Translations under genes and position numbers: made by a program
In this document: positions 112 through 13,179 of the stretch, piece by piece
How positions within the stretch are numbered: the first letter of the stretch is position 1
Layout: each line of letters starts with the position of its first letter
Notes under the pieces: generated by a model
Told to the model about the DNA's origin: nothing
The model's database searches: none
What the model saw: only the letters and a program-made list of their open reading frames with translations
IMG/VR virus record: IMGVR_UViG_3300042485_000700
Location: 1-20,231 of that record
Direction: 5' to 3' (one strand)
Length of the DNA stretch: 20,231 nt
From: a virus

Positions 112-752
112 GCCCACTCCAATGCCTGCTTTGTCACTTCATCCAGACGCCGCATCCAGCCCCTGCCAAACGTGGCAAAAGTTGAGAGCGAACGATAAAA
201 CTCCTCGCGCCTGTCGTCCATCTTGGCGATGATTTCCGTGGCGCTGGTAGCCTTGACCCGTTCTAGTGTCTTTGGGCCTATCACCCCATCCGCATCGGCC
301 CCCACGGCCCCCTGAAGGAACTTGGCGGCCCTTGACGGCCCACTGTTCACGGCAAGGTCAAACACCATCAAATCAACGCCAGCCGGAAGATCATCCCCGC
401 GAACCTTGTCCCAATAGCCGACGCGGTAGATGGCCTCCAGATCATCATCGGAGATGTTCCGCAGCTCGTCCTTCGTGACCGCGCGGCCTTTGTATTCACG
501 AAAGACGGCAATGGTGACGCCCTTCATGGTTGCCCCACCAGGGTCTTTCGGATGATCGGCCCAGCCGCCTTCATGCTTCAGGACTTCCGCAAGGCAGCGC
601 TTGAACCGGGCGTCTGTCGTAAGCGGTGATGCAGAGACCTCGCTAGGCGCTACAGACACGCCTAGTGCCTTGTTGATCAGGGCCACATCATCGCCGGTCA
701 GGGGAGCGCCCTTGACCTCTCTGATCGCATCAAAAAGCGCCTTGTGGGTCAC
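108..752 (-). CDS. GH108-family endolysin (N-acetylmuramidase)
   Basis: This is the phage lysozyme that cuts the glycan strands of peptidoglycan after the holin opens the inner membrane. I choose GTG at 752 because it overlaps the holin stop as GTGA and has GGGGAG (761-766) eight bases upstream. That gives 214 residues; a longer frame reaching 839 would start inside the holin with a Cys/His-rich unrelated stretch. Residues 50-80 carry the GH108 signature, with LKHEGGWADHPKDPGG at 58-73 and the expected catalytic Glu at 61. The C-terminal half (VFDLAVNSGP, then GVIGPKTL) matches the PG_binding_3 domain that usually follows GH108. A roughly 40-residue N-terminal extension precedes the catalytic domain. 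No signal peptide is visible, so release should depend on a holin. Confidence 0.9.
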   Translation of the reverse strand: MTHKALFDAIREVKGAPLTGDDVALINKALGVSVAPSEVSASPLTTDARFKRCLAEVLKHEGGWADHPKDPGGATMKGVTIAVFREYKGRAVTKDELRNISDDDLEAIYRVGYWDKVRGDDLPAGVDLMVFDLAVNSGPSRAAKFLQGAVGADADGVIGPKTLERVKATSATEIIAKMDDRREEFYRSLSTFATFGRGWMRRLDEVTKQALEWA

Positions 753-979
753 TTCATCAACTCCCCGATCACATTCATGATCTGCGGCATGAACATGCCA
801 ATCACAGCACCGCCGCCAGCAGCAGCGCCCGTTAGCCAAAGGATTTTTTTCTGGTTGGAAAGCGTAATCGCCCTCACTTCAAGAAACTCCTCACGGGTGA
901 CGTGATCGAGTTCCAAATCTCGCACGTCATCTTTGAGGTTTCTTACGTCGGCGGCGACGGCGGGAAGACTCTCCGACAT
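749..979 (-). CDS. XhlA-like small membrane protein, holin candidate
   Basis: This 76-residue protein has a charged helical N-terminus (about 5-40, likely coiled coil, with an alternating VRNLKDDVRDLELDHVTREEF pattern broken by charged residues). One hydrophobic segment follows at about 46-72. This is the layout of the hemolysin XhlA family (PF10779), which acts as a holin or holin partner. The gene overlaps the upstream membrane-protein gene as TGATG and the endolysin as GTGA, so translation is probably coupled. Position directly before the endolysin supports a role in membrane permeabilisation. A run of seven A residues occurs in its coding strand just before the membrane segment. Family assignment is by layout and motif feel rather than alignment. 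Confidence 0.65.
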   Translation of the reverse strand: MSESLPAVAADVRNLKDDVRDLELDHVTREEFLEVRAITLSNQKKILWLTGAAAGGGAVIGMFMPQIMNVIGELMK

Positions 980-1467
980 CAGCCATGCCCGACACGATAA
1001 AGCCGCCAGCGATCAAGCAGGCCACTGAAAGCAACAGCCAGTGCATGACTGATTCCCACACTACCCATCGTGACAAGCTGAAGACCGAAAGCGACATTCA
1101 TCATTACCGCATAGACATAGATGGAATGTTGCGTGGCCTCTCCGACCTGCAAAACGTGGAAGAACGCGACGTGTGAAATAAGCTGGAAAACCAGAAGCGC
1201 GCTGATAACAGGCTTCCACCAACTGCGCTCTTTATACCATGACCTCGCGACCATTCCCAAAAGAACAAGGTCGATCACGGGCCAAAGCATCACGCCTGCC
1301 GGGAACCCATAGACCTCGACCAGCGTATTACTCAGCGCATAGGCCATGCAGAACATGACCGACACACCAACCGCATCCGCAAACCGTGGCTTTGCGTGAG
1401 CCGCAGCCCATGCGTTTACCGCATAGGTCGCCAGACACCAGAGGCCGAAGATTTCGCGCAAGTCCAT
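979..1467 (-). CDS. Multi-pass integral membrane protein of the lysis block
   Basis: The 162-residue product is strongly hydrophobic, with four to five likely membrane spans at roughly 5-23, 30-50, 55-76, 84-106 and 115-140. Short charged loops separate them (for example RSWYKERSWW at about 75-84). I do not recognise a family. The gene starts with ATG at 1467, overlapping the previous stop by one base (TAATG), and its own stop overlaps the holin candidate start (TGATG). Sitting between a coiled-coil protein and the XhlA-like protein suggests a role in the inner membrane during lysis or superinfection control, for example a second holin or antiholin. That role is inference from position only. 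Confidence 0.75.
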   Translation of the reverse strand: MDLREIFGLWCLATYAVNAWAAAHAKPRFADAVGVSVMFCMAYALSNTLVEVYGFPAGVMLWPVIDLVLLGMVARSWYKERSWWKPVISALLVFQLISHVAFFHVLQVGEATQHSIYVYAVMMNVAFGLQLVTMGSVGISHALAVAFSGLLDRWRLYRVGHG

Positions 1468-1712
1468 TACGGCACCGGGTCAACAGGCTTGTCAGGAGCA
1501 TCTACCGGAGGCTTGTTCGTGCCACCAGAGAACGCAACGACGTTATCGGAGGGATGTGCCTCGCAATAGGCCGCTTGGGCTTCCTCTAGCAGCTTATGCA
1601 GCTTGCGGGTCGCGCGGACGACACGCTTTGAGGCGCGCTTCACGTCCTCCGACGCCTCCTCTAGCTCGGTTACAGCGTCGCCAATGGCGTTGATGTAATG
1701 TTGCGCGGTCAT
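1467..1712 (-). CDS. Small coiled-coil protein of unknown function
   Basis: This 81-residue protein has a long charged helix (about 8-50, rich in E, K, R and A, pattern AVTELEEASEDVKRASKRVV) predicted by eye as coiled coil. A proline-rich, flexible C-terminus follows (PPVDAPDKPVDPVP). No signal peptide or membrane segment is visible. The start ATG at 1712 has only a weak ribosome site (AAAGG about 13 bases upstream). The stop overlaps the downstream membrane-protein gene as TAATG, which supports expression as part of the lysis block. It could be a partner of a membrane lysis protein, but nothing in the sequence shows that directly. Confidence 0.65.
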   Translation of the reverse strand: MTAQHYINAIGDAVTELEEASEDVKRASKRVVRATRKLHKLLEEAQAAYCEAHPSDNVVAFSGGTNKPPVDAPDKPVDPVP

Positions 1713-1744
1713 GGTCTGATAGTGCCTTTCGTTGCCTGATTTGC

Positions 1745-2140
1745 CTAGTGTTCGTGGCTAAATGACCATCCCAGAACGTGTCCGCCTTCATGGGCCTTGA
1801 TGGACCCGCAATAGCTTGTGTCGTTGCGGACCAAATCGGCGACGTTGATCGTTTCGCGCTGCGCCATCGGGCGACCCGTGGGGCTGCACTGGACGGGCAT
1901 GAATATGATTCTGAGGCGAGTGTGATAGCAGGCCACCGATTGCCGTCCGCACCATTCCTGAAGCAACGGGCGCTCCGCATAGGAAACATTCACCGTCACC
2001 GTTCCCTGATAGCGACCGGGAGGCATATCACGCCACGTTCCACGGTCAGACGCTTTCGCAGGAACGGCAATGCAGATCATACCCCACACGGCGAGCGTGG
2101 CGACGATCAGGACGGATGCGAGTTTCAGGGCGTTTTTCAT
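1745..2140 (-). CDS. Secreted protein with HExxHxxGWxxxH zinc-metallopeptidase-like motif
   Basis: The 131-residue product begins with a typical signal peptide: MKNALK, a hydrophobic core at about 8-26, and a likely cleavage site after VPAKA at 30. Near the C-terminus is KAHEGGHVLGWSFSHEH (residues 115-131). This contains HExxH (H117, E118, H121), then G124, W125 and H129. HExxHxxG is the zinc-binding core of metzincin-type peptidases, and I recall an HExxHxNGWxxxH variant in small secreted proteobacterial and phage proteins. Cysteines at 64, 71, 85 and 111 could form disulfides outside the cytoplasm. The location upstream of the lysis genes suggests an envelope role. At about 100 mature residues it is short for a protease, so activity is uncertain. 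Confidence 0.75.
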   Translation of the reverse strand: MKNALKLASVLIVATLAVWGMICIAVPAKASDRGTWRDMPPGRYQGTVTVNVSYAERPLLQEWCGRQSVACYHTRLRIIFMPVQCSPTGRPMAQRETINVADLVRNDTSYCGSIKAHEGGHVLGWSFSHEH

Positions 2141-2150
2141 GTCATGACAT
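2139..2150. promoter_or_regulatory. 12-bp perfect palindrome ATGTCATGACAT at the start of the secreted-protein gene
   Basis: ATGTCATGACAT is self-complementary and covers the ATG of the secreted-protein gene. A further copy of TGTCAT lies at 2165-2170, so on the minus strand CATGACA and TGTCATG could also pair with a 15-base loop. There is no clear Shine-Dalgarno in this 32-base gap. It may be an operator-like site or a weak hairpin affecting translation, or chance. Confidence 0.3.
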
Positions 2151-2172
2151 TATTTTGGACTGGCTGTCATGT

Positions 2173-2931
2173 CTAGCGAGGCGGCGCGTTCTTGTAGGGA
2201 TGGCTTGCGGGAAGATTGCCTTGCAAGCCCCACTTCCACGCCAGGTATCCGGTGATCCGGTCGCGGGTGTCGGCTGACGGCGACCGCACGATCAGCATTT
2301 CCCCGAGGCGCAGGGCGGCGAAACGCCCTGTGGCCGTTGCTCCCAGCATGACGTTGAACGCTCCGGCCGGAATGCCAACAGTGCCCGCATCGCCCGTCAG
2401 CGCGGCGGCTCCGCCGTCACGGCGCAAGGCGGAACTTGCGCCGTTGTAGAAGTCCTCGCGAATGGCGGCTCCAGCGGTGTAGGGACCAGCGCCCGACAGG
2501 ACCGCACCGGCGAACATTGACCACACAGTGCCACCGCTCGCCCGATAGCCGACAGGCCCGGCGGGGTCCGTCGCGCCGCGATACAGGTTCGCGTCGGTCA
2601 CGCCGCCTGTATAGTTCGACAGGACCATGAACACGGCCATCGGCTGCGCCACGGCGGCGAGGGTTCCTTGCAGGAAATCCGTCGTGCCGTCCGACGTGAT
2701 CGCCGGGCGCTGGCCATCAAAGCCTGTTGCCGAGTAGGCGGGCTGGGCAGGCCCAGGGAATTGATCCCAACTGCTGCCGTCCACGCCCTTGTTGCGCCAT
2801 GCAGACACCGCGCCGCTCGAATGCGTGATCGTCGCAGCGTCGGCGGCGTCCAGCCAAAGAGCCGTAGACGCAACAATCCGGTTGGGCGTCCAGAGGCCGT
2901 TTAGCGTCACATATTGAACCGACCGTCTCAC
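2173..2931 (-). CDS. Concanavalin/LamG-like lectin-domain tail protein, receptor-binding candidate
   Basis: The 252-residue protein starts at a GTG (2931-2929) that overlaps the upstream stop (GTGA). Near the N-terminus is ALWLDAADAATIT (24-36), followed by SAWRNKG and later FDGQRPAI with DGTTDFL. This series is typical of phage and bacterial proteins with a concanavalin-like jelly-roll domain. The C-terminus reads DRITGYLAWKWGLQ, ending in HPYKNAPPR, a hallmark ending of these lectin-like proteins. Such domains bind sugars on the host surface in tail fibres or appendages. It sits after the ejection genes and next to another beta-rich structural gene, so a receptor-binding or adhesion role is likely but inferred. 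Confidence 0.75.
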   Translation of the reverse strand: MRRSVQYVTLNGLWTPNRIVASTALWLDAADAATITHSSGAVSAWRNKGVDGSSWDQFPGPAQPAYSATGFDGQRPAITSDGTTDFLQGTLAAVAQPMAVFMVLSNYTGGVTDANLYRGATDPAGPVGYRASGGTVWSMFAGAVLSGAGPYTAGAAIREDFYNGASSALRRDGGAAALTGDAGTVGIPAGAFNVMLGATATGRFAALRLGEMLIVRSPSADTRDRITGYLAWKWGLQGNLPASHPYKNAPPR

Positions 2932-3470
2932 GCGGAAAGAGCCGTCAGGGTAACAACGCGAGCCGCAGCCGTAGCCGTGAAGGCCCCATTGGTTACGAGA
3001 TAGCCGAAGAGAGAGCCGCCGGATGGAACAGTGATCTGTTTCGTAAGGCCGGTCTGTTCAACCCAAAGCGTATCGCCAACGTCAACCACAGTCCCAAGCT
3101 GGATTGCGCCGACGTAGCTTGCGCGGTCGCCCGAGGGAAGATTCCAGGCGGCATTGTCAACCAAGGCGGACGGCGGCGTGACGGTGTAGAGTTGCAGGGT
3201 GTAGCTTGTCTCACCGGATTGAACGGCGTTCACATCAACACGCAGACCGGTATTCGTGATCAGGATAGCCCCGCCACCCGAAGGCCCGATGTTAGAGAAC
3301 TGGACCGCGCCCTGCATAATGTCGCCAGCCGCATAAGCAGCCGCCGCAGGCGTGAAGGTGCCAGACGACAGGAAGCCGCCGCTAGAGACAAGCGTGCCGT
3401 CTGCATTGATTTGCTGGACGGTGAAGTCCACCTCTCTCTGAGGTGAGTTTAGGGGAAGCGAACGGGCCAT
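2928..3470 (-). CDS. Beta-rich structural protein, probable tail/fibre component
   Basis: The 180-residue product is rich in Ser, Thr, Gly, Ala and Val and poor in Lys and Cys, with repeated short strand-like stretches (AILITNTGLRVDV, SYTLQLYTVTP, TLWVEQTG). This resembles phage virion proteins of beta-sandwich type, but I do not recognise a named family. The ATG at 3470 has AAGGA seven bases upstream, the best ribosome site in this part of the operon. The stop overlaps the GTG of the lectin-like gene, so the two are probably coupled and may form one appendage. Confidence 0.75.
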   Translation of the reverse strand: MARSLPLNSPQREVDFTVQQINADGTLVSSGGFLSSGTFTPAAAAYAAGDIMQGAVQFSNIGPSGGGAILITNTGLRVDVNAVQSGETSYTLQLYTVTPPSALVDNAAWNLPSGDRASYVGAIQLGTVVDVGDTLWVEQTGLTKQITVPSGGSLFGYLVTNGAFTATAAARVVTLTALSA

Positions 3471-3586
3471 GTCAGGTTCCTTTCAGGCCGATGATAGCAG
3501 AAGACGAGGCGGAACGCATTACTAGGTTCTCTCGGGGTTATGGAGTAGAATGGGCGTTATGATCAGACTTGTGATGATTGCCGCCA
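3471..3586. other. 116-bp gap between ejection protein and structural gene
   Basis: This is one of the longest minus-strand gaps in the operon. It holds the Shine-Dalgarno of the structural gene that starts at 3470 and the first 37 bases of a plus-strand ORF (3550 onward). I see no convincing -35/-10 pair or terminator hairpin on either strand. Confidence 0.5.
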
Positions 3587-3840
3587 TTATCGCTGTCCCG
3601 TTCGGAGGTCAGTGGGCGCAAGCGGGACTGGTAGCCCTTGCGGCCTTACTGGTATTTGCGGAGATGCGAGAGAAGGAACGGGCTGAGGCGCGGGAGAAGA
3701 TTGCTCTTGATCGCGCAGAACAGTCTGAATGGCTTCTTCGTAGTATGGCCGAAGCGCTGGGTTACGCCCGGCAAGCCTCGAAAGCTCTCCCAGCGCCGCC
3801 CAACGCTGACGAACGTCCGTATTCCGATAAATGGCATTGA
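3550..3840 (+). CDS. Possible plus-strand small membrane protein antisense to the ejection protein 3' end
   Basis: The 96-residue ORF would encode hydrophobic spans at about 4-17 and 24-37, then a charged helix (EMREKERAEAREKIALDRAE, about 38-57) and a flexible proline-rich tail. This is a sensible small membrane-protein layout. GGAG lies four bases before the ATG, slightly close; an alternative ATG is at 3559. From the minus-strand stop at 3587 through about 3750, I counted GC at plus-frame codon positions 1, 2 and 3 as roughly 76, 45 and 56%. That is a coding-like pattern, whereas the overlapping minus frame would have its lowest GC at its third position, unlike its upstream part. The overlap of about 250 bases with a gene on the other strand is unusual, so it may still be a shadow. 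I recognise no family. Confidence 0.45.
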   Translation: MGVMIRLVMIAAIIAVPFGGQWAQAGLVALAALLVFAEMREKERAEAREKIALDRAEQSEWLLRSMAEALGYARQASKALPAPPNADERPYSDKWH

Positions 3841-5836
3841 TCGCAATCTGCGCGGGCTTGGAATAAAGCAGCGTTGCGGCCACTGTCGGAATGGCAATTA
3901 CCGGATTGACGACGCTACCGCCTAGCAAGCCCGCGCCGATAATCGCGCGCTGACCTGAGCCGGTGTTGCCAATGGTCGGGGCGAGAACGTCAACGGCAAG
4001 GTCCGTCGTTTCCTGAAGGCGACCTTCGCCAGTCTCATAGGCTCGCCCGTTCTGCCTTGCCAAAACGCTGTTAAGCTGGCTTGGCGTAAACATTTGTTCT
4101 TGAACCGCCGTCTGCGGGTTTCGGGCCGCAGAGCGAATGCGCTCAAAGTTCGCATATGCCGCATCAGCAGCGCGCTTCTGTTTAAGCGAGCCGGGTTGCG
4201 CGCGTTCCAGTGCATCCTCAAACGCCCCTCGCACCTGACGAAGCGGCGTCTGAAGCTCTGTCGGAGCCTCGTTAATCATGCGAGACAGGTCGGAGTCGAT
4301 CCGCTTCCATTCCAGCCCATTGATCGGGCCGGAAAAGCGCTTACGAAGGTCGGCGGTCAAGTCAGACAGGCGCTCACGCGATGCGCGCGACAAGGTGCGC
4401 GGCGAGATAAGGCTTCCAATCTGCTGTTGCCACGTCGCGTCAGGCGCGACCGTAATCGGCAAAAGCAAGTTGTTATAGAAAGCCGAAATCATGTTAGCCC
4501 CGGCCTTAATGGCCTCTCGCCCCCTGACGTTCTCGGGGAGTTGCTGGCCGATGGGAGCTAGGGCCTCATTGCTTATCGCACGATCAAAGCCCTCAATGCC
4601 GCGATTGCGAGCGCCTTGAACAAAGGGAAGCATTCCCGCCGCGACATCCTCCACGGCGCGAGCGCTTGACCCGACACCAGGAATGTCCGCCACCATTTGC
4701 CCCGGCGTCAGGGGAACGCCCATGCGGGAAAGCTGACGCGGACGAGAGGCTTGACCGGTCCCTGCGCGGGAAGCCGCACCAAACGCGCGTTGTGCCGCAC
4801 TATCCAGAACGCCCATCGTTCCGGCTCCAACGACGCCAGACGTAAATACATCGGCGGCGCGTTCTCCGAAGTCGCCCTCAGAGTTAAGAAGGCCAGACGC
4901 CATGCCGGTTCCAGCCCCAACGCCCGCCGCACGTCCAAGGCGTTCCGCGCCCTGCGCCCCGGCGACGTAATCACCCGCACCCTTCATGCCGGGCGTGAAC
5001 AAGCCGCCAAGCATTTGATAGCCGAAGTTCTGGACAGGGTTTTCTCGCGCGTAGCGGTCCATGGTGTCGCGCATGGCGTCTCGGCCCGCTTGGCTTGCAA
5101 GGCCAGCGTCGCCCCCTCGCGCCAGCGCATCGACATAAGAAACCGCGCCAGTTACCCACGGAACGGCACCGCGCCCACCCAAGGTCTGCCCAGCCAGCAC
5201 CGCCGCAAGCTCGTTAGGGACCGCCTGCGCTCCCCCGAGGGCGCGGGCATATTCCGCCTGATACGCGGGATCGGCGCGGCGCTGAATAAGGCGCTCGCGT
5301 TCCCTTTGAGACTTACGCTGATCGGTTTCCCATTGCTCACGGGTTCCCAAGTCGCGGCCCGAGGAATCAAAGATACGCCCGCCGCGCTCTACGACGCCCT
5401 CGTCAATCGTGACCTCGATTGGCTCAGACTCTCCGGTCGGCCACCATTGCCCGCCGTCAAAGACCATGCGCTCGCCGGTCTGCGGATTTGTCGCCGTCTG
5501 AAGCTGCGCGTCCTCTACAGTGCCGGAATCATACCCAGCCAACGGGCTAACCTGCCCGCCCTCATAAGCGATCTGCTCGTCAGCAAGGCTAATGGCTCGA
5601 TCCATATCCCCATACTGGGAATACAGCGCCTCAATGCGCTCCTCACGGCTTAGTGCGCCGCTGTCTGATACCATAGGGGCGGCGGGGGCCACAGGCGCGG
5701 CTTGCTGGCGCGGGGCGGTCGCTGCCCTTTGCTGAGTCTGGGGGGCGGCTTGGCGAACGGGAGCAATAGGCACCCACGTTTCGCCATTCCACTGAACGCG
5801 CTCGCCGGTTTGGGGGTTGGTTGCTGTCTGGGGCAT
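3587..5836 (-). CDS. Large internal virion / DNA-ejection protein candidate
   Basis: This 749-residue protein is the last and largest of three adjacent genes in the place where podoviruses encode ejected internal proteins (compare P22 gp7, gp20, gp16). The N-terminus carries two copies of a QTATNPQTGER...W.P motif (about 2-24 and 112-134), separated by a Gln/Ala/Pro-rich linker. A Gly/Ala-rich middle (about 290-350) could be amphipathic or membrane-active. Helical segments follow, then a hydrophobic stretch near 635-665 (AIIGAGLLGGSVVNPVIAIP), and the protein ends in a proline-rich tail. The ATG at 5836 directly follows the stop of the previous gene. The function is inferred from order and composition. 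The last 250 bases overlap a plus-strand ORF, and the tail may be weakly constrained. Confidence 0.75.
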   Translation of the reverse strand: MPQTATNPQTGERVQWNGETWVPIAPVRQAAPQTQQRAATAPRQQAAPVAPAAPMVSDSGALSREERIEALYSQYGDMDRAISLADEQIAYEGGQVSPLAGYDSGTVEDAQLQTATNPQTGERMVFDGGQWWPTGESEPIEVTIDEGVVERGGRIFDSSGRDLGTREQWETDQRKSQRERERLIQRRADPAYQAEYARALGGAQAVPNELAAVLAGQTLGGRGAVPWVTGAVSYVDALARGGDAGLASQAGRDAMRDTMDRYARENPVQNFGYQMLGGLFTPGMKGAGDYVAGAQGAERLGRAAGVGAGTGMASGLLNSEGDFGERAADVFTSGVVGAGTMGVLDSAAQRAFGAASRAGTGQASRPRQLSRMGVPLTPGQMVADIPGVGSSARAVEDVAAGMLPFVQGARNRGIEGFDRAISNEALAPIGQQLPENVRGREAIKAGANMISAFYNNLLLPITVAPDATWQQQIGSLISPRTLSRASRERLSDLTADLRKRFSGPINGLEWKRIDSDLSRMINEAPTELQTPLRQVRGAFEDALERAQPGSLKQKRAADAAYANFERIRSAARNPQTAVQEQMFTPSQLNSVLARQNGRAYETGEGRLQETTDLAVDVLAPTIGNTGSGQRAIIGAGLLGGSVVNPVIAIPTVAATLLYSKPAQIAINAIYRNTDVRQRWAALGELSRLAGRNPALRPYYEEAIQTVLRDQEQSSPAPQPVPSLASPQIPVRPQGLPVPLAPTDLRTGQR
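5468..5830. repeat. Two diverged copies of a ~33-bp segment encoding the QTATNPQTGER motif
   Basis: Plus-strand positions 5468-5500 and 5798-5830 share gcgctcgccggt, then a similar stretch ending gtctg. They encode the same peptide motif twice in the N-terminal part of the 749-residue ejection protein. The copies differ at several bases, mostly in ways that keep the protein motif, so this is a protein-level repeat under selection rather than a recent DNA duplication. Confidence 0.7.
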
Positions 5837-7186
5837 CTAGTCCAACACAAATCCGGGTGGCGGCGGGGGGGCATTACGGCTAGACGGTGCGACCTGACCG
5901 CCCTCGCGGCGAGCGATGTCTCGCTCAAACACCGAGCGCGTGGACGTGCGCGAATCCTGGAAGCGTCGTAGAGCGCCCAAAACAACGCCCTCGTCACGAG
6001 TGCCGGACAGAATGGTGTTAAGTTCGCGAATGGCGTCCTGATCGGTCTGAACGCCAGTGTTCGCCTGAAGAATGGCGTTGCGAGCTTCCATCGCCCAATT
6101 TCGCAGCGCGTCGTAGTTAAGCGAGTTCTGATTGGAGAACCCGGCGGCGTTGCGGGCCGCAGACACAGTGTTTGCGATGGGGTTGAGGTTAAGCTCGCCC
6201 TGCATGATTTGACGCTCAATCTCTGCGGCGCGAGAAAGCGACGTATCAAGGGCCGCAATGCGGCCTTCGGCCTCCGCAATAGCCTTTTGGTCAGAATCGG
6301 ACATCGGGCGGGGAGCGGTATTCTGCGCGTAAAGCTGCCCATCACGATAGACCTGACCGCCGGGCGCGACATTGACCGTGTTCGCATTCAAAAGCGCGGC
6401 TTGCTCCGAAGGCGTCGGGCCACGCGAAGCAATGACCTCAACACCGTTTTCAGTGTCGCGAACGAGATCAGTCCCGAACTCTCGCGTTCTCGGGTTGCGG
6501 AAGACCTGACCGGTCCCGGCCACGCGCTGCGCGCCGCCCTCGGCAATCACCTGCGGGGAGTATTGTTGTGAAACCGCCTGCGTGAAAGCGTCAGGGTTCG
6601 TGGACGCCAGCCATGCCATACGCGGATCGGCGCGAATGTCTTCTGGCAAGGAAGCCATAGCCGCCTGTTGCTGGCGATACTGACCCAGCATGGTGGTGGC
6701 GGCCTCGATGTTACCCTGGCCGATCAAAAGCTCTATTTGCGAGCGGATGGGCGCGGGGATGTCGCTCACCGGAGACTGAGCCTGCATAGGCATAGGCGCG
6801 GCTGCGGGCGCAGCCTGACGCAATGCCGGAACGGCGGCGTTCATTCCGCCTTGCGCCATAGCGGATTGACCGCTTGCCGCTTGCGTGGGACTCATGCCGC
6901 GAAGGGCAGCGTTTAGGGCCTCTCGGGCTTGCGCCTGCTGTTGAGCGGCTTGGCGTGCCTCTTCTTGCGCCTGACGATCCGCCTGAATCTGACGCGCACG
7001 GCCTCCACCGTCGCTAATGTCCTGAAGCTGCGCGCCGAAGACGCCTAGGCGATCCACAAAGTTACCCTGACCGCGATTTTGGGCGAGGAAGTTTTGCACA
7101 CCACCCAGCAAGCCCTGTCGCGGGGCCTGCGGAGACACGCGGGGCAGGGCGTTCAGTTGGCTTTGGAACTGATCGAAGATACCCAT
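5837..7186 (-). CDS. Internal virion / DNA-ejection protein candidate
   Basis: The 449-residue protein begins MGIFDQFQSQLNALPR and is rich in Gln and Ala. It has a strongly helical, coiled-coil-like Q/A/R segment at about 83-115 and a second helical region at about 300-345. A proline-rich end (SSRNAPPPPPGFVLD) closes it. There is no signal peptide or evident enzyme motif. This composition and the position between two other such proteins fit an ejected internal virion protein (P22 gp20-like role), which is inference. The ATG overlaps the upstream stop by one base (TAATG) and its stop directly abuts the next ATG, so the three ejection genes are translationally linked. Confidence 0.7.
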   Translation of the reverse strand: MGIFDQFQSQLNALPRVSPQAPRQGLLGGVQNFLAQNRGQGNFVDRLGVFGAQLQDISDGGGRARQIQADRQAQEEARQAAQQQAQAREALNAALRGMSPTQAASGQSAMAQGGMNAAVPALRQAAPAAAPMPMQAQSPVSDIPAPIRSQIELLIGQGNIEAATTMLGQYRQQQAAMASLPEDIRADPRMAWLASTNPDAFTQAVSQQYSPQVIAEGGAQRVAGTGQVFRNPRTREFGTDLVRDTENGVEVIASRGPTPSEQAALLNANTVNVAPGGQVYRDGQLYAQNTAPRPMSDSDQKAIAEAEGRIAALDTSLSRAAEIERQIMQGELNLNPIANTVSAARNAAGFSNQNSLNYDALRNWAMEARNAILQANTGVQTDQDAIRELNTILSGTRDEGVVLGALRRFQDSRTSTRSVFERDIARREGGQVAPSSRNAPPPPPGFVLD

Positions 7187-8508
7187 TAGAGCCTCGCGTA
7201 ATCGACCATGAGGAAGCCGCCGGGGCCTTCCGAGACCGCATCGGGTTTGATCGCTTGAACCTCTTGCGCCATGACGCCGACTTCCGGGCGATCCGACCAG
7301 ATGTAGTTATAGGAGTATGCCCGATAACCGTTTACTTCGCCAATGAACTTGACGTTTTCCTTTAAGCGATAGTCAGAGAACAGAGCGGCAAGCGAGGCAG
7401 CGGTTTGCGCCCCCTGACCAATCGTTCCAAGCAAGCCGGGATTAGACGAGGTGGTCGTCGTTCCCGTTCCCGTCGTGGTCCCTTGAACCGTTTGACCGAT
7501 AAGACCCTGAGTCGGGATGCCGCCATACAGTTGTGCGAGGGCCTGAAGCTGCGACAGGCTCGCCGTCCGCTGATTGGCATCGATCTGCTGCTGTTGCGCG
7601 CCAAGGTCGGACAGAAGGCCGATGTCGGCACGGTTGTTACCGGCTATCGAGGAGCCTAGATCACCCAGCAAGCCCGCGCCCTGAAGGCCAAGCGAGGCCA
7701 TGAACTGACCTTGCTGGTTCATTGCCCCCGCATTGGCGAGTTGCACGGCCTGAGCATTCGCAGCGGACTGGATAGCCGCCTGTTGCGCCCTAGCCGCATC
7801 GCTATCAGCAAGGCCTGTCGCGCGATCAAAGCCGCCCTGTAGAATAGAGGCCAAGCCCGCCGCACGGGCGCGAGAAATGCCCTCTTCGGTCTGCGCCTCC
7901 CTTACGCCAAAGCGCGAGCCGCCGAATGCCCCCGCCTTTGCGGCCTGAGCCGCCTGTTGCGCCCTGATCTGACCGGCTTGGGACTCAGCGTCGGCCTTGT
8001 AGGCATCCGTAACCTGTCCCGTGTAGGGGTTTAGGTATTTTTCCAGACCGCCATCAAGAAGGCCAACGGCCCCGACGCCCACGGCTTCAGCCATCGCGGG
8101 ATCGTAACCCTGCATGGATTGATTAACGAGATTGGCCGCGTTGCCGTAGAGCGAGCGATAGTCGCCCATCCCGCCCATACCGCCCTGTGTCGGCTGACCG
8201 GGCGCGACATAGCCATCCCCGCCGCCGCCGTTGATTTGCGGGCCGGTGAAGTCCTCGCCGCCCTTCATCGCCGGACGCGGTTGCGGATTGGTCATCGGGC
8301 CTAGCAGACCGGATGCGGCACCGAAGGCCTGTTGCTGAAGCGGAGAAGCGGGCGCGACGTATTGCAGGGGATCGGACCGACCGAACTCTGCGATCTGCGA
8401 CCCCAGATCACCGAGGCCAGACGTATACCACGACGGCGCGTTCGGCGTCGAAGTCTGGTTCGTGACCTGATTGGTCGTCTGCTTCGTGGTTTCTTTTCTG
8501 TTTCCCAT
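7186..8508 (-). CDS. Internal virion / ejection protein candidate with a C-terminal S74-type mini-domain
   Basis: The 440-residue protein starts with a Thr/Asn-rich segment, then a Gly/Ala/Gln-rich body with helical stretches (for example GQIRAQQAAQAAKAGAFGG at about 178-196). The last 64 residues (377-440) read FSDYRLKENVKFIGEV, then YSYNYIW, GVMAQEVQAIKPDAV and VDYARL. This SDxRLKxN...Y.W...GVMAQEV pattern is that of the Peptidase_S74 intramolecular chaperone domain of tail fibres. Here it is short and sits on an ejection-type protein, a combination I recall from other podoviruses. Automatic annotation would probably say tail fibre; gene order favours an internal or tail-tube-associated role. 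The ATG lies two bases after the previous stop. Confidence 0.7.
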   Translation of the reverse strand: MGNRKETTKQTTNQVTNQTSTPNAPSWYTSGLGDLGSQIAEFGRSDPLQYVAPASPLQQQAFGAASGLLGPMTNPQPRPAMKGGEDFTGPQINGGGGDGYVAPGQPTQGGMGGMGDYRSLYGNAANLVNQSMQGYDPAMAEAVGVGAVGLLDGGLEKYLNPYTGQVTDAYKADAESQAGQIRAQQAAQAAKAGAFGGSRFGVREAQTEEGISRARAAGLASILQGGFDRATGLADSDAARAQQAAIQSAANAQAVQLANAGAMNQQGQFMASLGLQGAGLLGDLGSSIAGNNRADIGLLSDLGAQQQQIDANQRTASLSQLQALAQLYGGIPTQGLIGQTVQGTTTGTGTTTTSSNPGLLGTIGQGAQTAASLAALFSDYRLKENVKFIGEVNGYRAYSYNYIWSDRPEVGVMAQEVQAIKPDAVSEGPGGFLMVDYARL

Positions 8509-8510
8509 AA

Positions 8511-8951
8511 CTACAGAACCTTCTTGCAGCTAACGGAAAACGGCGCGTAACCCTTTTCCTTGAGGATTTTCGACCAGCCTTGACGGCCCTCGACGATGAC
8601 CGCCGTGCAACCGTTCAGGCGCGCCCAAGCTTCGATACCAGGGGCCATCAAAAGAAGTTCTTCCATATCCCCCGCGCCTAGCCACACTTGCAGGACCGTT
8701 TCGGACGGATAGGTATGAATCTCGGTCACCATCGCGGCATTCTTGCCGGGCCAGAACTGCGCCCGACCCTCCGCGATAGCCTTCAGCACGTCATCCATGC
8801 TGTAGAAGCCACCTTCAAGAGCTTCAGCCAGACGCTCCCGATGCGCCTCAAAATGCGGAGGCACAGGCAGGGGAACAGCCGGGGGCGGAACCAGCGTCAG
8901 TTTCGGCTTGGCGGACGCCAGCGCATCTTCGAGTTCGGCTTCAAAGCTCAT
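8511..8951 (-). CDS. GNAT-fold-like small virion protein (T7 gp13-type role possible)
   Basis: The 146-residue protein has a proline-rich N-terminal linker (about 15-35). A domain resembling a degenerate acetyltransferase fold follows: a strand segment (TYPSETVLQVWLGAG), a helix (MEELLLMAPGIEAWARLNG), then a strand TAVIVEGRQGWSKILKEKGY near 117-136. The EGRxGWxxxLxxxGY stretch is the feature I recognise from small phage proteins such as T7 gp13 relatives that sit before the internal virion genes. No complete acetyl-CoA loop is evident, so catalysis is doubtful. Its ATG overlaps the upstream stop (ATGA). A role in assembling the ejection proteins is inferred from position. Confidence 0.6.
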   Translation of the reverse strand: MSFEAELEDALASAKPKLTLVPPPAVPLPVPPHFEAHRERLAEALEGGFYSMDDVLKAIAEGRAQFWPGKNAAMVTEIHTYPSETVLQVWLGAGDMEELLLMAPGIEAWARLNGCTAVIVEGRQGWSKILKEKGYAPFSVSCKKVL

Positions 8952-10783
8952 CGCGCACCCGTTCCAACAACGTCAAACTCCAGCTTGCCCAGACGCGCAA
9001 ACGTCGGGGAGCTATTTCCGGCAATCTTCACGCGGGCCAAACGACCCTGCAACAGCATATCCTTGCGCTTCTTTCCGGGAAGCAGGGAATACGGACCCTT
9101 CACCCTTAGATCAGATTGAGGGTAAAGGCGCGTGGAAACAGTCAGGGAGATCGGCCCCTGCTGATCCTTGAAGTCTGGCCAGATACCCCTGAGCATCAAA
9201 AGCTGTTCGCCTTCGCCAATGTATTGATCCGCGCTTTCCGCATACCACGAAATCGCGTCGCCGTCCGCACTTGTCCCGCGTTCGTGGTAATAGACTTGAC
9301 CCTCGTAAGTCACTCCAATCGGCGAAACCGGCGGCCCAGCATCTACGAATGCGGTCCTAGCCAAAGTCCCCTTGGACCACTGGCCCTGAAGATTGGCGCT
9401 GAAGTAACGGCTGTTCTCATTCCCATCCCGCGCGTCTGGATAGAACCACCAGACCTCGTTGAACTCGCTGATCGTCGCAGCGACAATCTTGTCACCCTGT
9501 GCATCCGCAAGGTTATTGGCGAAGTCCGTCTGAATGGGCGAGACCATCAGTTGAGGCTCGCCGCCCATAGCGCAAACATAGAATTGTCTATTAGGCGCAC
9601 ACCAGAAGGATTTTTGACCCAGAACCACCGCTGCATTGGGGCCAATCAACCCGCAATGTTCTGCAATGCGGTCAAATCTCCACGGCTGAGTGACGTCTCC
9701 GGTGAACTGTCCAAGATACAGCGCATTGTCAGTCCAGACGTTGATATACTCGCCGATCTGTTTTGCCCCGACGAGCCGTCCACCGCCCTCTAGGATCACC
9801 TCGCCAGCGAGGTTGTCGGGGCGCGTTTCCCAGTCTTCCGGGTCTTCCGTATTGGAAAACCGGATGCACAAGGCGTTGAAGTTGCCGGATAGCTCCTCAT
9901 TGCACCCAAACGCCATGACCTGACGGGTATTGGTGACAAGGGTATAGGTGACCTCTTCCGGCGAGTTAGGCAGCTTCACCGCCCTTTGAGCCGTATCATT
10001 GGACCACCGATAGATCGTCTGGCCTCTGGGATTGGCGATCAGGCTTTGACCATAGGCCGCCATGCTCCACGTCAGCGGAAAGAAGTCCGCCGTGGACGCC
10101 TCGCTATACTCCCCCGTGGAATAGGTGCCGGTTCCCCAGCCTTGGCCTCCGGTGCCATTGATCTCACCGGGGACAAATGCGTCCGAACCGCCGGTCAGCG
10201 TTCCACCGGCAGAGACCACAATCCCCGTGGCGGCTTCAGTCAGAATGATTGAGTTACCCGCCGTGCCAACCGGAACCGCCGTTACAGTCACAACAGCAGA
10301 CACAGCCGCCGCTGTGGCAATGGTCGGAATATCCGCGGTGATAGCAGAGACGATATTCGTTGCTTGCGTCGCGGGAGTGGCTGAGATCGTAACCTCACCA
10401 GCCCCACCGCGAGACGCCTTGAATGTGAAGGTCTGAGACCCGATCACGAACGTCTCGTTAGCAACCGGCGTGCCGTTGACCGTGATGGTTCCCGTGGCTT
10501 GCACATTAACGGGCGTAATCTCAAACAGCCCACCGCCGTAAGACACCTGCAAATCGGTATGGGTGCCAAACGCCGTATTGAGAACCGCGCTATTGTCCGT
10601 CCACGCGAAAACAGTCCGACACACTCCCGAGAGCATATCGGACTGAAAGGACTCCCAGCCGCCGATGGTCTGCACCATGTCGCGCCAGAACCGCACCTTG
10701 TCCACATCGGACCATGCGTTGCGCGTCAGGAAGGCAGAATCATCCAGTTGGAGACCCGGCGCGATGACGAACGGCTGGTTCAT
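8948..10783 (-). CDS. P22 gp10-type tail hub / packaged-DNA stabilisation protein with inserted domain
   Basis: The 611-residue protein opens with FVIAPGLQLDDSAFLTRNAW and later has features of the podovirus tail hub family: GGGLFEITPVN at about 83-93, RGQTIYRW near 253-260, then FGCNEELSGNF, AEHCGLIGPNA and a long beta-rich C-terminal half with WWFYPDARDG. These match proteins related to P22 gp10, which plug the portal and hold packaged DNA. Between about 94 and 202 lies an extra Val/Thr/Ala-rich module (GTITVNGTPVANETFVIG ... AGNSIILTEAATG ... LTGGSD) of a type seen in many unrelated phage structural proteins. The flanking parts read as one family, suggesting the module was inserted. ATGA overlaps at both ends. 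Confidence 0.75.
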   Translation of the reverse strand: MNQPFVIAPGLQLDDSAFLTRNAWSDVDKVRFWRDMVQTIGGWESFQSDMLSGVCRTVFAWTDNSAVLNTAFGTHTDLQVSYGGGLFEITPVNVQATGTITVNGTPVANETFVIGSQTFTFKASRGGAGEVTISATPATQATNIVSAITADIPTIATAAAVSAVVTVTAVPVGTAGNSIILTEAATGIVVSAGGTLTGGSDAFVPGEINGTGGQGWGTGTYSTGEYSEASTADFFPLTWSMAAYGQSLIANPRGQTIYRWSNDTAQRAVKLPNSPEEVTYTLVTNTRQVMAFGCNEELSGNFNALCIRFSNTEDPEDWETRPDNLAGEVILEGGGRLVGAKQIGEYINVWTDNALYLGQFTGDVTQPWRFDRIAEHCGLIGPNAAVVLGQKSFWCAPNRQFYVCAMGGEPQLMVSPIQTDFANNLADAQGDKIVAATISEFNEVWWFYPDARDGNENSRYFSANLQGQWSKGTLARTAFVDAGPPVSPIGVTYEGQVYYHERGTSADGDAISWYAESADQYIGEGEQLLMLRGIWPDFKDQQGPISLTVSTRLYPQSDLRVKGPYSLLPGKKRKDMLLQGRLARVKIAGNSSPTFARLGKLEFDVVGTGAR

Positions 10784-12708: not shown

Positions 12709-13179
12709 ATGGATTTACGCCCCGACGACATTGAGCGGTTCTGGTCCAAAGTGGACAAGAACGGAGAAAACGGATGCTGGAACTGGACCGGGTGGGGCTT
12801 GCCGACCGGATATGGTCGGTTTGACCTAAGAAAGCACAAGCCCTTATGCACCCATGTTGCACTGACGCTTGCCGGGCGGCCTCGCCCCGAGCATCCGCGC
12901 GACAACGCGCTCCATGGCGACTTTTGCACGCCACGCTGCGTCAATCCCGACCACTTGCGGTGGGGAACCAAAGCCGAAAACACCGAAGACCGCGACCGGC
13001 TGGGGCGACGCATCGCAAAAAAGGGCACTGAGCACTGGGCTGCACGCTTTACTGAAGACCAGATAAGGGCGATCCGCGCGGATACGCGCTCGCAACGAAA
13101 AATCGCAGCAGCATACGGGACCGAGCAAGGAACCATATCCGCCATTAAGCGCCGGAAGATTTGGAAGCACGTCATTTAG
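12709..13179 (+). CDS. HNH homing-type endonuclease with C-terminal helix-turn-helix
   Basis: The 156-residue protein is the clearest plus-strand gene. It starts MDLRPDDIERFWSKVDKNG, then CWNWTGW and GYGRF, the standard opening of this phage HNH group. The nuclease core is ALHGDFCTPRCVNPDHLRWG (67-86), with H69, N79 and H82 as the HNH residues and C73/C77 as possible structural zinc ligands. Residues 114-154 (FTEDQIRAIRADTRSQRKIA, then GTISAIKRRKIWKHV) form a helix-turn-helix DNA-binding tail. It sits alone, opposite to all neighbours, and its stop overlaps the convergent stop of the next gene by a few bases. This fits a free-standing homing endonuclease inserted between two tail genes. Confidence 0.9.
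   Translation: MDLRPDDIERFWSKVDKNGENGCWNWTGWGLPTGYGRFDLRKHKPLCTHVALTLAGRPRPEHPRDNALHGDFCTPRCVNPDHLRWGTKAENTEDRDRLGRRIAKKGTEHWAARFTEDQIRAIRADTRSQRKIAAAYGTEQGTISAIKRRKIWKHVI

Follow-up and report, generated by a model that had tools for sequence, protein, structure and literature searches.

A family of exported zincin-like proteins linked to phage lysis genes

We found that the gene at positions 1745-2140 (minus strand) of the window, by which we mean the whole stretch of DNA analysed (a complete IMG/VR record, linear, 20231 bp and probably a fragment), belongs by sequence to a family without a name, whose members are small, mostly exported and present in viral contigs and in some alphaproteobacterial genomes. 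Across the family there is a strong association with lysis genes. From its sequence and predicted model, the window protein is probably an exported, disulfide-braced minimal zincin. That it works in the periplasm and aids lysis by cleaving proteins of the envelope, perhaps the tethers between outer membrane and peptidoglycan, we hold to be about an even bet.

The window gene and its neighbours

The ORF encodes 131 amino acids between an ATG start and a TAG stop. Its hydrophobic N-terminus (best 12-residue Kyte-Doolittle mean 2.7, from residue 7) gives a signal-peptide-like stretch at residues 1-30 (2051-2140, minus strand), followed by VPAKA/S, which by eye is a plausible Sec cleavage site of the AKA type. 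The roughly 100 mature residues contain a PPGRYQ motif, four cysteines (64, 71, 85 and 111) and, at residues 117-131 (1748-1792, minus strand), a predicted zinc site, HEGGHVLGWSFSHEH, with HEGGH at 117-121 and motif residues H117, E118, H121, G124, W125 and H129. This stretch is also the C-terminus, and just two residues stand after H129. The original prediction had placed a secreted HExxHxxGWxxxH protein here, and the ORF, its hydrophobic N-terminus and the motif residues were all confirmed.

The ORF is a real gene, beyond chance, since it shares 48% identity with its closest relative, L039, across 131 aligned columns (E 1.7e-37), an identical copy occurs on a second contig, and dN/dS among relatives is low (0.02-0.29 in 36 of 36 pairs among nine close relatives, the L064 group). 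The protein had no Pfam or PHROG match at E 1 and no tblastn match in the phage collection at E 1, and its peptide seeds found nothing in genome contigs. A plasmid search returned one 40-residue match in three records, at E 0.8 and under a transposase annotation.

Downstream on the same strand lie genes for an 81-aa protein (1467-1712), a 162-aa putative membrane protein with several hydrophobic segments (979-1467), a 76-aa protein that is holin-like only by eye and has no PHROG match (749-979), and a GH108 endolysin of uncertain start (108-839; PF05838 E 3.9e-29, phrog_315 endolysin E 2.3e-53). Just upstream, also on the minus strand, is a 252-aa fibre- or decoration-like gene (2173-2931); its match is to phrog_11772, of unknown function (E 2.7e-4), and its LamG-like label was given by eye only, Pfam returning no match. 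It is preceded by a 180-aa gene (2928-3470, minus strand) with no Pfam or PHROG match. Other ORFs of the window have PHROG matches to portal and virion structural families. We saw no spanin, in agreement with the original prediction, though the record ends about 107 bp beyond the endolysin stop.

A sister contig, L233, is 99% identical to the window over 749-10140 and 97% over 1-108, and its HExxH gene is identical. The endolysin has been exchanged: the window carries GH108 at 108-839, whereas L233 carries PG_binding_1 plus M15_4 at 9302-9889.

Two further ORFs of the window lie on the plus strand. The first (12709-13179, 156 aa) runs opposite the structural genes and has an HNH_3 match at E 0.0047, below our cut-off; it is perhaps a homing endonuclease. 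The second (3550-3840, 96 aa) has a hydrophobic N-terminus, overlaps the end of a 749-aa gene in antisense and has a sub-threshold DUF6596 match.

Recovery and conservation of the family

Whole-protein searches returned only the identical copy. Scanning with the pattern HExGHxxGWxxxH gave 114 viral and 116 genome stretches, many of them chance hits, and these were filtered, together with two further loci, for a PP-type motif upstream and a short tail. The filter passed 109 loci, three of them copies of the window sequence, representing 93 distinct proteins. One of these is a chance hit (L187) and one a long form (L055); the other 91 form a single BLAST-connected group, a connection that the shared motif helps.

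Invariance of the motif in alignments A1 (the window protein and 79 others) and A2 was discarded as evidence, because members had been selected by motif. C64 and C71, which had played no part in selection, are kept in at least 90% of the 80 A1 sequences. After dropping L187, L055, L054, L111 and L036, we counted a hydrophobic segment ahead of the PP motif in 79 of 88 members and four mature cysteines in 72 of 88, which fits exported proteins. By eye, the second cysteine pair differs by clade in A1 and A2, being NPC...CHExGH in one arrangement and a C before a strand plus HExGHC in the other.

To keep the count of the motif from being circular we turned to 12 relatives that had not been found through it, leaving out repeats (L262, L271), known family loci and a fragment (L276); one of the six seed peptides behind this set contained HELGH. 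HExxH, Glu included, is kept in 11 of the 12, and a third His stands at +12 in nine and at +10 in two (L273 and RW gp80; +10 is Phe in the window protein). The original prediction had looked to loss of H117/E118/H121 in homologues as evidence against it, and such loss occurs in one relative, L250, a degenerate copy without the second His.

Pfam, NCBIfam and PHROG scans of the 80 members gave generic metallopeptidase matches, each in one or two members, as well as two unnamed PHROGs and an eCIS core domain. Tblastn searches of the phage collection with L182, L064, L062 and L044 gave no match, and with L039 only four RW-type phages at E 0.4. In a genome search confined to one order, at least four of 297 genomes matched, with at most 17 candidates scored per genome; one of the four was the centre genome itself.

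A member in a cultured phage

Caulobacter phage RW carries a family member, gp80, which matched by HMM at E 1.4e-12 with 28% identity over 100 columns (among 13 proteins) and at only E 0.4 in the whole phage collection. Its motif reads HELGHARGGMH. The next genes, gp79 and gp78, resemble the window's 81-aa protein (weakly; shuffle Z 5.7, no BLAST match) and 162-aa protein (BLAST E 1.1e-7 among the 13 proteins); tblastn with the 162-aa protein against the whole phage collection gave no match at E 0.1, and the likeness of the 76-aa protein to gp77 is not significant. The gene for an M15 endolysin, gp73 (PHROG endolysin E 5.1e-42; Pfam M15_3), is found some 3 kb downstream of gp80, and gp71 is lipoprotein-like by eye. 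For RW-group phages, a table in PMC11053796 gives a SAR endolysin, no spanin and no protease. Phages of the laboratory strain Caulobacter vibrioides CB15 carry a family member (RW gp80), so that the role of the family is testable in culture.

Linkage to endolysins and spanin-like pairs

The endolysin search covered 50 of the 69 virus records with an HExxH gene. GH24 was found in 18 and GH108 in eight, together in 25 of the 50, and in 23 of these 25 the HExxH gene lies within 2.5 kb of the endolysin. Among records of at least 15 kb, 22 of 24 were linked against 3.7 expected (P ~1e-16, relatedness ignored), which rejects the idea that the position beside lysis genes is an accident of the window alone. 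This P overstates independence, because the 29 records with any endolysin, which form 16 clusters at 50% identity (13 of them linked), collapse to three clusters at 40% and to one at 35%. M15 and a weak GH19 match (below cut-off) added three linked records (G008, G050, G017) and an unlinked one (G026); the other unlinked records are G041 and G056. None of the five endolysin families was found in 21 of the 50 records.

Within one clade, the HExxH gene of nine out of 13 records shares the endolysin strand and lies no more than 2.5 kb downstream. In G035 and G013 the HExxH start codon and the endolysin stop overlap, by 4 nt and 1 nt respectively, and in G042 they are 15 nt apart. In six loci (L070, L076, L018, L024, L028, L013) we read by eye the order endolysin, HExxH gene, Rz/Rz1-like pair, in some with small ORFs between; in L082 the HExxH gene follows the pair, and in L062 a pair lies about 1.2 kb further on, again by eye. 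Four putative i-spanins were scanned and all four weakly matched Rz-like spanin PHROGs (E 3.3e-5 to 0.0089), one of them also matching an unknown family. A crude detector, run on 39 of 40 loci (L314 left out), found overlapping spanin-like pairs within 3 kb of the HExxH gene in ten of the 39 (229 kb), against one pair in the 443 kb further away; it missed the pairs seen by eye in L070, L013 and L062, and L293 is doubtful among the ten.

Since these six loci hold an Rz/Rz1-like pair as well, the HExxH gene accompanies spanins rather than replacing them, and we rejected replacement; the window protein is unlikely to be simply a substitute for a missing spanin. The family resembles Rz/Rz1 in neighbourhood, in being exported and in likely acting on the envelope at lysis. 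In contrast to spanins, the window protein by eye has neither a single-TM coiled coil nor a lipobox, and there was no PHROG spanin match for it at E 1 or for the 80 members at E 0.01. Small proline-rich lipoprotein-like genes lie beside the HExxH gene on the same strand in L019 (6084-6308, minus) and L072 (1786-2055, plus), and by eye these could be o-spanin-like.

Closeness to endolysins would also suit an accessory peptidoglycan peptidase that helps the endolysin, and M15 zinc peptidases, though of another fold, are themselves the endolysins of some of these phages. We consider such a role very unlikely. The HExxH gene accompanies glycosidase and peptidase endolysins alike (GH24, GH108, M15 and one GH19 match below cut-off), and neither M15, M23 nor any other wall-peptidase family appeared among the Pfam and NCBIfam matches of the 80 members at E 0.01. 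The exchange of the endolysin in L233 beside an identical HExxH gene likewise argues against a second peptidoglycan cutter, and the cutting of peptidoglycan crosslinks, one of the options raised by the original prediction, lost ground accordingly.

Contexts less easily fitted to a lysis role

In a second clade, which holds the Mesorhizobium-type copies, HExxH gene and endolysin run on opposite strands in all 14 records, ten of which have an integrase over cut-off. Opposite strands and integrases suit a separately expressed gene, as would be expected under lysogenic conversion: the exported protease would be made from its own prophage promoter and alter the lysogen envelope, and the site among lysis genes would be a tolerated insertion for such a moron. 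Copies on chromosomes outside recognisable prophages (by eye) point the same way. Against this, the gene lies just downstream of the endolysin and on its strand in nine of the other clade's 13 records, two of them with overlapping codons, the window gene lies on the strand of the window's late genes, and 15 of 29 records searched (many being fragments) have no integrase match. We regard lysogenic conversion as unlikely.

Some chromosomal copies adjoin metabolic genes by eye. Those in L166, L179 and L156 (Mesorhizobium) and in L224 lie beside an aminotransferase-like gene, outside recognisable prophages (also by eye). In two large phages (L242, L244) the HExxH gene sits, by eye, among early-type genes.

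The window's own subfamily (20 contigs) shows a different arrangement. The HExxH gene follows the 180-aa gene in 12 of the 20, with the fibre-like gene between them, and the window's nearest relatives have it mostly in the head module behind this gene pair; in several contigs it lies between genes that, judged by position, are putative portal and scaffold genes. An endolysin-like match was found downstream in three of 20 stretches, or four of 20 with L233, and many of the contigs end early. Strict lysis linkage was therefore rejected for this subfamily. The original prediction had put the gene in a lysis block, which fits the GH108 endolysin downstream on the same strand and the family-wide linkage, but within the subfamily the gene was mostly not observed near lysis genes. 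Because the gene moves with the fibre-like pair here, a lysis role is less sure in the window than in the family.

Tblastn comparisons also showed the 180-aa gene (67-79% identical), the variable fibre-like gene and the HExxH gene (window 2173-3470 for the first two) travelling together between unrelated-looking phages.

Such contexts could point to receptor destruction or superinfection exclusion. The exported zincin would remove or alter the outer-membrane protein to which the phage's fibres attach, keeping progeny off debris or making infected cells resist a second phage, and the gene would be inherited with the fibre genes because it must match them. It does follow the 180-aa and fibre-like genes in unrelated phages of the window subfamily, and in several loci of the opposite-strand clade it converges on, and abuts, fibre-like genes (by eye). 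However, the same-strand clade has it between endolysin and spanin-like genes, and no family match of the 180-aa gene or the fibre-like gene shows a receptor role. We think this explanation rather unlikely.

Predicted fold and comparison with known peptidases

AlphaFold2 modelled the window protein from alignment A1 with a pLDDT of 85 (94-98 at residues 41-130) and a pTM of 0.72, and placed HExxH on the last helix (110-122). L182, modelled from A2, gave a pLDDT of 92 and a pTM of 0.85, with a predicted order of strand, helix, two strands and helix. Foldseek returned nothing at E 0.001 for either model. In VIA, the top row for the window model was projannalysin (4jix; Z 3.8, 64 residues, rmsd 3.8), followed by selecase (4qhf; Z 3.7, 62 residues, rmsd 3.6); a transcriptional regulator and YbeY both scored Z 3.1, and unrelated rows came within 1 Z of the top. 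For the L182 model, 1oz9 (Z 5.0, 77 residues, rmsd 3.1) and YbeY 7y7o (Z 4.3, 77 residues, rmsd 3.2) preceded a collagenase (Z 4.0, 74 residues, rmsd 3.5) and many unrelated rows, with a SPRTN-type protein (2.9), ADAM33 (2.5) and Wss1 (2.5) lower down. Zincins thus occur among the VIA rows at Z 2.5-5.0, interleaved with other folds, and a Z below 8 may reflect a common arrangement only. We take these weak matches of predicted models as suggestive only.

Both family profiles ranked two small Streptomyces zinc proteases, 1c7k and 4hx3, first among solved sequences, at E values (0.12 and 0.6) that are not significant. These proteins, which we take to be snapalysin (MEROPS M7), are likewise small and secreted (132-134 residues) and align up to the HExxHxxG region, but the third zinc ligand of snapalysin is an Asp at +10, whereas the window protein has a His at +12. 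Projannalysin and selecase are minimal zincins of about 105 residues and in this resemble the window protein; as minimal gluzincins they have a fold with a later Glu ligand, which lacks a counterpart in the window protein because its chain ends after H129. YbeY-type proteins (7y7o, titled a ribonuclease, and 1oz9, presumably a YbeY-type metalloenzyme) share a three-His site with the family and top the VIA rows for L182, but YbeY is a cytoplasmic ribonuclease without the Glu of HExxH. Metzincins have their third ligand at +10 (HExxHxxGxxH/D) and a Met-turn after the motif; in the window protein +10 is Phe, the third His stands at +12 and neither residue after H129 is Met. The metzincin and M15-type relationships that the original prediction proposed for comparison were thus not recovered, there being no M15 match among the 80 members at E 0.01. 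Judged on its motifs, the family is zincin-like, and we could assign it to no named family.

The zinc peptidase reading of the original prediction survives in a qualified form: the protein is best read as an exported domain resembling a minimal zincin, and the structural matches are weak. A zinc-binding or inactive exported protein without catalysis, serving as scaffold or inhibitor, would be in keeping with the very small size of the window protein, the lack of a Met-turn or C-terminal subdomain, the two residues after the third His and the loss of the second His in L250. Against this, 11 of the 12 relatives recovered without the motif keep HExxH with its Glu, and we rate it the least probable of the explanations considered.

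Proposed role in lysis

The standard Gram-negative lysis functions are holin, endolysin and spanin. In the reading we prefer, the HExxH protein would be made in the late phase and exported to the periplasm by the Sec route, so that no holin would be needed. From families we infer that H117, H121 and H129 would hold the zinc and that E118 would serve as base. The protein would help lysis by cleaving some protein of the envelope, alongside holin and endolysin and, in relatives, Rz/Rz1 as well. A periplasmic task seems likeliest, since virions are assembled in the cytoplasm and are unlikely to take up a protein that is exported. Indifference to endolysin chemistry and coexistence with spanin-like genes favour a protein substrate over peptidoglycan.

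The likeliest substrate class would be an envelope tether, which has to be cut or taken along when the cell opens. We favour this class because Rhizobiales, as described in PMC10787603, are without Lpp and have outer-membrane barrel proteins linked covalently to peptidoglycan; by analogy, these barrel-peptidoglycan tethers would make an attractive target. Tether cutting is known chemistry, in that E. coli DpaA, according to PMC8263019, detaches Lpp from peptidoglycan. A bolder reading, which we consider doubtful, would add a fourth kind of lysis protein in many tailed phages, apparently of Alphaproteobacteria: minimal zincins exported to cut the proteins that join the outer membrane to peptidoglycan, which would let the outer membrane be shed in hosts where barrels replace Lpp as tether.

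A functional precedent is offered by Listeria Mtz/Tim, given in PMC8235301 as a secreted metzincin and a TIMP-like lipoprotein of phage origin; there, a secreted metalloprotease raises sensitivity to phage-mediated lysis and virion release. Compared by description, that system differs from the window gene in its Gram-positive host and its CI/Cro-type locus with no lysis cassette (PMC8235301). Listeria MpaR, a phage metalloprotease anti-repressor (PMC6872733), was set aside as a parallel: it is a DUF955-type protein whose targets are repressors, while the window protein looks exported.

Searches of open-licence papers on lysis genes, metallopeptidases, envelope links and Caulobacter phages yielded no account of an HExxH protein within a lysis cassette, which is weak evidence of absence. 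A survey (PMC6139136) records no spanin in 91 of 677 phages and asks about another route of outer-membrane disruption. Since it recurs in lysis cassettes, the exported zincin-like protein is a concrete candidate for a further lysis function, and a lysis role, if true, would name genes now annotated only as hypothetical.
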